Positions 26,340-29,204 of a stretch of DNA of 63,413 nucleotides are shown piece after piece. The stretch is taken from assembly GCA_903868245.1 (NCBI GenBank), contig CAIPUN010000154.1:1-63413 (forward strand), in the 5' to 3' direction. The notes under the pieces were generated by a model. It saw only the letters and a list, made by a program, of their open reading frames with translations. It did no database searches and was not told where the DNA came from. The stretch is from an uncultured Sphingomonadales bacterium (lineage in GTDB: Bacteria > Pseudomonadota > Alphaproteobacteria > Sphingomonadales > Sphingomonadaceae). Each line of letters starts with the position of its first letter. The first letter of the stretch is position 1. The position numbers were made by a program, and so were the translations under genes.

Positions 26340-27011
26340 TTAGCCTAATTTACCATCATGCAAACGCACAATGCGGTCCATCTTGGCTGCCAAACGTTCA
26401 TTATGGGTGGCAACGATAGCAGATGATCCCACTTCACGCACCAGCGCCATAAATTCACCGAGAACGATATCGGCCGTGTGCTCGTCCAAATTACCTGTAG
26501 GTTCATCTGCCAACACCAGCTTTGGCCGGTTCGCCAGTGCCCGCGCCACAGCAACCCGCTGCTGCTCACCCCCTGACAGTTTTGACGGCCTATGATGCAG
26601 CCGTTCAGACAGGCCCAGCTGCGTCAGCAAATAGGTCGCGCGATCCTGCGCAACATCGGGCGCAACATCGGCAATCAACTGTGGCAAAATCACATTTTCC
26701 AACGCGTCAAAATCCGGCAGTAAATGATGGAATTGATACACAAAGCCGAGCTTCTGACGGCGGATATCCGTTTGGCGATCGACACCCGCTGTGCTGACTT
26801 CTTCACCGTCCAGTTTTATGGACCCCGAAAACCCACCTTCCAATAAGCCAACAGCTTGAAGCATGGTCGATTTGCCGGAACCCGATGGGCCAAGCAACGC
26901 CACCAATTCACCCTTGCCAACAACAAGATCGACGCCGCGCAGGACTTCGATTGTTACATCGCCTTGCACAAATTTGCGTTTAACATGAATGAGTTCCAAG
27001 ACATTATTCAT
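26340..27011 (-). CDS. lolD: Lipoprotein-releasing ABC transporter ATPase
   Basis: 223-aa ATPase that drives extraction of outer-membrane lipoproteins from the inner membrane to LolA. Walker [10 protein letters not shown] is at 41-49, signature [15 protein letters not shown] and Walker [14 protein letters not shown] follow, with the H-loop in [10 protein letters not shown]. The start overlaps the end of lolC by 8 bases, so ATPase and permease are made from one message. Confidence 0.95.
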
Positions 27012-28254
27012 AACGCAGCACCTGAACTGGGTCCGTACTTGCCGCCTTTAGTGCGGGGTATAAGGTCGCAAGAAAGCTGAACAGCAAAGCTAGCCCGCAG
27101 ATTGCCAGAACTTCAAACGGGTCTGTGCGCGACGGCAATTCTGTCAAGAACCGGATCGATGGGTCCCACAAATTCTGCCCTGTCACAAATTGAATAAAGT
27201 TCACGACGGACTGCCGGAAATAGAGAAATATCGCCCCCAATATCATGCCCAAAACAATGCCGGACGAACCAATCAACAAGCCAACTGTCATGAAAATTTT
27301 AAGCAAAGATTTGCGGGATGCCCCCATGGTCCGCAATATGGCAATGTCCCGTGTTTTGGCGCGCACCAGCATGATGAGTGACGACAAGATGTTGAACACT
27401 GCAACGAGAACGATGATTGAAAGCACGACAAACATCGCAACCCGTTCAACCGCCAAAGCCTCGAATAAGGACGCATTCATGCTTTTCCAGTCGACAATCT
27501 GGCCCTTATTCTCAAGCTTGGGCAATAAAGGCCGAAGTATCTCGTTTACCTTGTCCGGATTTTCCGTCTTAATCTCGATCATGCCGATTTCATCCCCCAT
27601 CAGCATGAGGATTTGCGCACGCTCAATGGGCATGATGACAAAAGCCTTGTCATAATCATACACGCCCACCTCAAAGATCGCCGCGACTTCATAGGATATC
27701 TCACGCGGCACGGTACCAAATGGCGTGGTGCGACCGGCGGGGTTGATAATCGTGACGCTCTGCCCGACCTGGACCCCAAGATTTTGGGCAAGCCGAGAAC
27801 CAATCGCAACCTTGTCTTCATCGGGGCTTAACCTGCGCAAATCGCCCGCTACCGTCTTCCCCTCTAATGTATCGTTTTTTAGAATATCATTGACGGACAT
27901 GCCACGCGCCAAAATGGCCTCAACCCTGCCATTAAAGGTCGTTAGCAAGGGTTGCTCAATCAACGCGGTTGCATCGGTCACGCCGTCTGTCTGTTTCACA
28001 TCGGTGAGGATTTCACGCCAATCTTGCAAACGACCGCTATAGCCCTGAATGACCGCATGCCCGTTTAGGCCAACGATTTTATCAAATAATTCGGCGCGAA
28101 AGCCGTTCATGACGCTCATCACAATGATCAACGCCGCAACACCTAATGCAACCGCGACCAGGCTGATGCTGGCGACAAGGAATATAAAGCCCTCGCCTTT
28201 ACCGGGAAGCAGATATCGCCGTGCGACCATGCGTTCATATCGCGACAATATCAT
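27004..28254 (-). CDS. lolC: Lipoprotein-releasing ABC transporter permease (LolC/E type)
   Basis: 416-aa MacB/FtsX-fold permease with one N-terminal transmembrane helix (about 20-50), a large periplasmic domain (about 50-265) and three C-terminal helices (about 280-400). The conserved starting segment [19 protein letters not shown] and the [18 protein letters not shown] hook match LolC/LolE. Only one permease gene is present, as in the alphaproteobacterial form where a single LolF-type protein acts as a homodimer. ATG at 28252-28254 is chosen because the conserved N-terminus starts there. It is divergent from the RNA/small-ORF locus at 28.3 kb. Confidence 0.93.
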
Positions 28255-28304
28255 GTGCGGACATTCATATATGATTTTGGCATAGGCATTACTTAGGTTC
28301 CGCC

Positions 28305-28481
28305 ATGAAGGCTGGCAAGCATTGTTGCTGGGACGCAACAGCTTTTAAAAAAGCGTTTGCGAGAGTCGGGTTCCATTTGCAAAGCGAAAAGCAAAAGATG
28401 ATGCAGAGTAGGAACTTTTCGAAAGCCCGTTTTGGCCGATGGTTCAAGGAGAAAATCAGACACGCCGGTGGGGACCGGTAG
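28305..28481 (+). CDS. Candidate 58-codon basic small ORF
   Basis: Reads ATG to TAG for 58 residues, with many lysines and arginines, especially in the last 27 (MMQSRNFSKARFGRWFKEK, then IRHAGGDR). The ribosome site is weak (TAGG about eight bases upstream). I do not recognise it. Its end lies in a region that folds into stable hairpins leading to a strong terminator (28518-28552), so the transcript could equally be a non-coding RNA. No overlapping gene exists on either strand. Confidence 0.3.
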   Translation: MKAGKHCCWDATAFKKAFARVGFHLQSEKQKMMQSRNFSKARFGRWFKEKIRHAGGDR

Positions 28482-28552
28482 AGATCTGAAACCACGCGGC
28501 AGAAAAGCCGCAGCGCGAGGCCGTTCGGAATATCCGAGCGGCCTTGTTTCTT
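28465..28552 (+). ncRNA. Structured 3' end of an unidentified transcript
   Basis: Three consecutive hairpins: CCGGT-gggg-ACCGG (28465-28478), GCGGC-agaaaa-GCCGC (28496-28511), and an 11-bp terminator stem (28518-28544) followed by TGTTTCTT. They are on the plus strand in a 464-base gap between lolC (reading left) and the small heat-shock gene (reading right). The 5' end of the RNA is unknown; it may begin near 28300. It does not match 6S, SRP, RNase P or tmRNA features that I can recognise. Confidence 0.45.
28518..28552 (+). terminator. Strong Rho-independent terminator
   Basis: AGGCCGTTCGG (28518-28528) pairs with CCGAGCGGCCT (28534-28544): 11 bp with one G-T wobble, 5-base loop, followed by TGTTTCTT. 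Neither annotated neighbour reads rightward into it, so it must end an otherwise unannotated plus-strand transcript. Confidence 0.85.
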
Positions 28553-28595: not shown

Positions 28596-28623
28596 CTTGC
28601 ATTTTTTTGGGCACATCCCATCT
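28596..28623 (+). promoter_or_regulatory. Sigma-32 (RpoH) type promoter of the small heat-shock gene
   Basis: A -35 of CTTGCAT (28596-28602) and a -10 of CCCATCT (28617-28623) are separated by 14 bases. This closely matches the heat-shock consensus CTTGAAA / CCCCATnT. Transcription would begin near 28630 and give a 5' leader of about 90 bases that contains the thermometer hairpins. Confidence 0.7.
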
Positions 28624-28631
28624 TGCCAATC

Positions 28632-28721
28632 GGAGGCCGAAAGGCTCCAAAACAAACATGCTAATCGCTGCACATGCGGGGTTAGCGAAGAACCAAATTG
28701 CTTGATGGAGAATTTGAAATG
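28632..28721 (+). promoter_or_regulatory. ROSE-like RNA thermometer in the hsp20 leader
   Basis: The leader folds into a GAAA-tetraloop hairpin (28632-28648), a TCGCT/AGCGA hairpin (about 28664-28687) and a final stem that closes the ribosome site. In the last, CAAATT (28694-28699) pairs with AATTTG (28711-28716), G28700 bulges, and CTT (28701-28703) pairs with the GAG of the Shine-Dalgarno (28708-28710). The TTGCTT strand with its bulged G facing GGAG is the hallmark of ROSE elements (repression of heat-shock gene expression). The ATG follows at 28719. Confidence 0.7.
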
Positions 28722-29204
28722 AACCGTTTTGATTTTACACCTTATCGCCGGAATACCGTAGGTTTTGACCGCCTATTCGAGCTGCTAGAAACCACAGGTC
28801 GTGCCGCGCAAAATGAAAATTACCCTCCATTCAACATCGAGCGTACGGGCGAAAATGACTATAAGATCACTGTTGCCGTCGCCGGGTTCAAGACCGATGA
28901 GGTCGATATCGTGGCGCAGCAAAATCTGCTAATTGTAACAGGCAGCAAGCAAGCTGAAGGCAATGATAATCGTGATTTCTTGCACATGGGCATTGCGAGC
29001 CGGAACTTCGAACGTCGGTTTCAACTCGCCGACCATATCCATGTGATAGATGCAGACATGGCCGACGGCCTTTTGATCATCAATCTCGTGCGTGAAGTAC
29101 CCGAAGCGTTGAAGCCGCGCAAAATAGCGATTGGCCCGAAAACGGCTTCCACGGTGATTGAACATGATGACGCGTCCACAAAAAAAGGACCGCGCGCGGC
29201 CTAA
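28719..29204 (+). CDS. Small heat-shock protein, Hsp20/IbpA type
   Basis: 161-aa ATP-independent holdase of the alpha-crystallin family that binds unfolding proteins under heat stress. The N-terminus FDFTPYRRNTVGFDRLF is the class A IbpA/HspH type. The alpha-crystallin domain spans about 30-130 (YPPFNIERTGENDYKITVAV onward, then GIASRNFERRFQLADHI). A short C-terminal tail with RKIAIG follows. The ATG at 28719 is chosen because the family N-terminus starts there and the upstream bases form the thermometer. Expression is predicted to depend on sigma-32 and on melting of the leader hairpin. Confidence 0.94.
   Translation: MNRFDFTPYRRNTVGFDRLFELLETTGRAAQNENYPPFNIERTGENDYKITVAVAGFKTDEVDIVAQQNLLIVTGSKQAEGNDNRDFLHMGIASRNFERRFQLADHIHVIDADMADGLLIINLVREVPEALKPRKIAIGPKTASTVIEHDDASTKKGPRAA

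Follow-up and report, generated by a model that had tools for sequence, protein, structure and literature searches.

The window analysed here is a contig of 63,413 nucleotides (CAIPUN010000154.1, assembly GCA_903868245.1) from an uncultured Sphingomonadales bacterium. It carries, on the minus strand at 27004-28254, a lolC/E-type lipoprotein-releasing permease gene (NCBIfam lolCE, 403 bits, over the cut-off), which is the conserved divergent neighbour of the element described below, and, on the plus strand, the heat-shock gene hsp20 (nearest NCBIfam model IbpA, below the cut-off). Between them the initial annotation had placed a plus-strand transcript at 28305-28552 that no annotated gene explained. 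The second half of this interval stands and the first half does not: we predict a small RNA of about 137-140 nt at 28412-28550 (+), while the DNA before it is promoter DNA, the proposed start having been set about 100 nt too early. We consider it probable, at roughly 0.6, that this is a trans-acting regulatory small RNA (sRNA) of an old Sphingomonadaceae family, with a box-regulated promoter and with G-rich linkers as its likely seeds.

Structure of the predicted RNA

The predicted RNA consists of three hairpins (H1, H2 and H3), one more than the initial annotation had listed, followed by an intrinsic terminator, all on the plus strand. Hairpin H1 (28412-28445; GAAC...GUUC with apical GCC...GGC) has 97% of cells paired in its helices 1 and 2 over the genus and shows compatible variation or covariation across genera. 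The conserved core, GGCCGATGGTTC in the window, begins at 28434 and directly precedes the exposed G-rich linker 1 (28446-28455), which the alignments give as AAGGAGAAAA in the window and as AGGGGGA or GGGGA in relatives. H2 (28456-28489) has a GGGG apical loop at 28470-28473, and a compensatory change from GC to AU was found in 4 genomes. H3 (28494-28511; GCGGC...GCCGC) is given by both folding and the genus consensus. The terminator (28515-28552) has a stem at 28515-28547, for which 15 pairs were counted, 9 of them G-C (13-15 bp), and then a U-rich tail; together with the neighbouring hairpin it folds at -37.6 kcal/mol, compared to -21.4 +/- 3.6 in shuffles (z = -4.5). The strong GC-rich terminator proposed earlier is therefore borne out by pair count, folding and conservation: each of the 28 copies in the genus has it, and the changes in its stem preserve pairing. 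A terminator not kept in relatives, which the initial annotation had named as a ground for refutation, was thus not what we saw. On sequence grounds, it is the end of a previously unrecognised small RNA.

These copies come from a DNA search of 100 relatives, in which the greater part of the stretch was matched in 27 genomes of the window's genus (E <= 1e-20). The named records in the group are Sphingorhabdus (S. rigui, S. profundilacus and S. contaminans), and the rest are Sphingomonadales metagenome-assembled genomes. The gene order lolC (-), RNA (+), hsp20 (+) is the same in 28/28 copies, followed by pyrG (-) in those loci that extend far enough; because the queries for lolC and hsp20 were out of frame, only their positions were used. 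In the genus consensus structure (H1, H2, H3, terminator) 96.7% of cells are paired and double-sided changes are few (6 cells; 0/500 shuffles). RNAalifold, run on the whole alignment of the genus, did not yield a useful structure. The genus model R1, whose training set includes the window sequence, scores 122-170 bits on the 28 copies and at most 34.2 bits on anything else; its match in the window covers 28410-28552 at 137 bits. The weak R1 hits inside the genus sit immediately upstream of lolC, and they too have the core GGCC..GGTTCAGGG and a terminator. Outside the genus there are matches of 25-34 bits, and the two inspected (L096 and L097) are only similar terminators. Comparison of the sequences thus gives a conserved sequence with a covarying four-hairpin structure and no conserved open reading frame (ORF) in the genus.

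Distribution within the Sphingomonadaceae

The core pattern GGCCRTGGTTCRGGGR (GGCC..GGTTCRGGG) was found in 72 of the 401 genomes of the order, compared to 11 matches for the reversed control. Some of these matches are due to chance within coding sequence, for example the dnaE-like frames in L131, L132 and L134. The RNA that these loci have in common runs in the order H1, linker GGGGA, H2, linker AAGGGGGCU, H3 and terminator, where H1 is GAA-CRC-A-GGC...GCC-GUG-G-UUC, H2 is a fast-changing stem and H3 is GACGA...UCGUC; the second linker, AAGGGGGCU, is present in most other genera. A family model, R2, was built from 31 loci. At E <= 0.01 it has matches in 231 of the 401 genomes of the order, usually one per genome. 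At 1e-4 in a sample of 289 alphaproteobacterial genomes it gave two matches, both in members of the Sphingomonadaceae. Starting from the core, we could follow the RNA into at least 16 genera of that family, where it is usually single copy.

Two alignments were examined for covariation. In alignment A5, double-sided changes are seen in 11 of 28 pairs (0/500 shuffles). In alignment A6, which was fitted to the model and hence is biased in its favour, 32 of 39 pairs have changes on both sides (0/500 shuffles), with 214 cells compared to 52 in shuffles and far lower values in slid controls. The single-stranded segments are far more conserved than the stem sequences.

In three genera (g57, g110 and g16) the R2 matches sit between hisI and a comF-family gene and are read as a relocated or paralogous copy; at the hisI-like locus of the checked genomes that have the lolC-type RNA, no such RNA was found. 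The loci L252, L253 and L254 (g57, g16 and g110) hold a longer R2-matching RNA with repeated GAGGG/GGGGGG linkers, and keep the TGTTGC...CACA box described below. Also, beside the hisI-like match in L262, L265 and L266 (Sphingorhabdus), GACAAGGGGGAGACAA occurs a short way ahead of a purF-like frame. It resembles linker 2 together with the beginning of H3, possibly by chance or as a promoter feature.

Proposed promoter and upstream box

The proposed promoter of the RNA (28377-28405, +) consists of TTGCAA at 28377-28382, a spacer of 17 nt, and GATGCA at 28400-28405. TTGCAA does not vary among the aligned copies of the genus, and the -10 element is weak in the window's genus. Among 50 family loci, 40 have TGACA or TGACG 35-38 nt before H1, and most have a TAGC-like -10. 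Since the window's TTGCAA occupies this family -35 position, the 5' end of the RNA probably lies near 28412.

Further upstream lies a dyad at 28323-28340 (TGTTGC-TGGGAC-GCAACA), present in the genus alignment and proposed as an activator site. In 48/50 family loci its counterpart, a TGTKGC-N8-CACA box, begins 90-98 nt ahead of H1 (shuffle rate 0.5%), and the distance from box to TGACA is 55-56 nt in nearly all of them. We regard this box as a putative activator site. Boxes of the same type also precede the hisI-locus RNAs of g57, g110 and g16, which suggests that box and RNA move together. In every lolC-type locus that was placed, across 16 genera, the gene from which the RNA diverges is either lolC or the proline--tRNA ligase gene proS that comes before lolC, the adjacency of proS to lolC being confirmed in L106. 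The promoter and box geometry is therefore fixed and the lolC synteny is kept. Control by EcfG was rejected, since the motif searched (GGAAC-N15-18-SGTT) matched 0 of the 50 upstream regions.

Interpretation and alternatives

The features expected of a bacterial intergenic regulatory sRNA, namely its own promoter, its own terminator, a conserved structure and no ORF, are all found here at the level of sequence, and the small RNA reading of the initial annotation gains from conservation, covariation, fixed promoter geometry and synteny. We infer that the RNA is transcribed. Transcription would start at a sigma-70-like promoter that belongs to the RNA itself and points away from lolC, under the control of a factor that binds the TGTKGC-N8-CACA box about 85 bp upstream, and would end at the RNA's own terminator. 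Because stem sequences vary and the exposed linkers rich in G (AGGGGGA or GGGGA, plus AAGGGGGCU in most other genera) stay constant, the linkers are probably the working parts. We prefer a model in which they would act as seeds for base pairing with C-rich segments of target mRNAs, over action through a protein partner or as a sponge for C-rich sRNAs.

Several results weigh against this picture. A small search of 24 genomes for complements of linker 1 that are conserved gave 10 matches, about as many as the reversed control; the search used TTTYCCCTGAAC, which is not the full complement, and is thus a weak test. The lolC upstream DNA of four genomes placed in the genus (G010, G012, G022 and G035) has no recognisable RNA. 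The window copy itself is divergent: R2 matches it at 28421-28549 with only 16.1 bits (E 0.025), the whole-genome R2 search missed it, its linker reads AAGGAG where the others have CAGGGRG, and it has no second linker of the kind found in other genera. Nevertheless, it is very likely a member of the family, as judged by its position relative to lolC, the core, the hairpin order, the upstream box and the bridging copies of the genus that R2 finds (L121 at 34.9 bits, L098 at 30.0 and L100 at 27.6). The absence of a recognisable copy in four relatives of the genus means that the RNA can be lost; the loci L107, L108, L109 and L113, in which four relatives placed in the genus have an AT-rich region and no RNA upstream of lolC, suggest such a loss.

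The best of the alternatives, which we nevertheless hold to be unlikely, is that the RNA acts through a protein, with its hairpins and exposed G-rich linkers serving as a scaffold or decoy in the manner of RsmY/RsmZ and with a partner other than CsrA. The hairpin-linker architecture, the high conservation of the single-stranded segments relative to the stems, and the failure of the linker 1 search (with its incomplete pattern) to find a conserved complement all speak for it. However, no alternative partner protein is known here, and CsrA (PF02599), the known user of such a design, was found in 0/61 genomes searched while three positive controls were detected. The RNA resembles the RsmY/RsmZ/CsrB type in having hairpins with exposed G-rich motifs between them, and differs in that the 61 genomes searched lack CsrA, which speaks against a classical Rsm mechanism and led us to reject a CsrA decoy. 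The more specific idea of a family-wide hairpin/G-linker regulator that works with an RNA-binding protein, as a CsrA-independent Rsm counterpart under the putative box activator, seems to us slightly more doubtful still.

A sponge that titrates C-rich small RNAs through its G tracts is improbable. The RNA does expose several G tracts, and C-rich sRNA loops exist in other Alphaproteobacteria, for example in GsrN (PMC5869019), but no partner sRNA has been identified in Sphingomonadaceae. GsrN of Caulobacter is similar in having an exposed single-nucleotide-rich tract as target site (PMC5869019); the tracts here are G-rich, and the upstream regions lack the EcfG-type motif. Another alphaproteobacterial sRNA, ChvR, likewise has three predicted hairpins, the last a possible terminator, and a regulated promoter. 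It was described as specific to Caulobacter crescentus and lies beside recF (PMC6237742). The putative Caulobacter ChvI motif, TTGC-N3-GCAA (PMC9731502), does not occur at the promoter here, the conserved TGTKGC-N8-CACA box differing from it in spacing and half-sites. Both ChvR and GsrN were rejected as homologues, since locus, promoter and seed differ.

The lolC-adjacent sRNA family is missing from Rfam. With Rfam 15 the window gave no match at the gathering score, and up to E 10 only sub-threshold matches over the RNA; 18 loci of relatives gave only sub-threshold ROSE-like matches and one miRNA match. Known Rfam families were rejected on this basis. When compared with 6S RNA, the predicted RNA is likewise stand-alone, structured, similar in length and conserved across the family, whereas 6S RNA is one long bulged hairpin and this RNA has four separate hairpins. 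6S RNA (RF00013) was not found in the window, and in relatives it lies elsewhere in the genome (for example, at C1:288812 in G008, where the RNA is at C1:338012), and this identity was rejected. We found neither a published mention of the core sequence nor a report of the RNA in the open-access papers searched.

Few small RNAs are understood in the Sphingomonadaceae, which include many degraders of pollutants as well as inhabitants of plants and fresh water. For the role of core post-transcriptional regulator, an RNA that is usually single copy, occurs in at least 16 genera and keeps a fixed promoter and a regulator box, yet is missing from Rfam and from the papers searched, is a strong candidate, and the covariance model, the seed candidates and the box offer handles for deletion, pull-down and regulator searches in laboratory strains.

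The gene downstream gives rise to a further explanation, that the RNA is an attenuator or leader of hsp20, which we consider very improbable. It is true that hsp20 lies downstream in the window's genus and in part of the other genera. However, in most loci of g108 and of other genera it was not found in the downstream flank read (about 1.5 kb), and the RNA stays. As hsp20 follows in a subset only and the downstream gene varies, the RNA is independent of it, and the leader explanation was rejected. The strong terminator also speaks against it, as do the promoter-like and ROSE-like sequences of hsp20 itself, which come after the terminator; the separate promoter that the initial annotation assigned to the heat-shock gene agrees with the promoter-like CTTGCAT-N14-CCCATCT at 28596-28623. 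Least probable of all is a basic peptide encoded by the 58-codon basic ORF at 28305-28481. This ORF is uninterrupted in the window strain and in 11 of the 26 Sphingorhabdus matches but has in-frame stops in the other 15, hence is not a conserved gene, and, with an RNA start near 28412, would lie mostly within promoter DNA; the earlier proposals of a dual-function RNA or a small nucleic-acid-binding protein lose their support with it.

Some further features of the locus may be added. The CTTGCAT-N14-CCCATCT sequence is sigma-32-like and precedes a ROSE-like RNA thermometer before hsp20; this leader, at 28630-28723, scores 26.4 bits and so does not reach the Rfam gathering score of 45. Sub-threshold ROSE-like matches also follow the RNA in L145, L146 and L147. 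On the other side, sequence and alignment point to a divergent promoter for lolC at 28292-28319 (-), with -35 CTTGCC and -10 CCTAAG, conserved in the genus.
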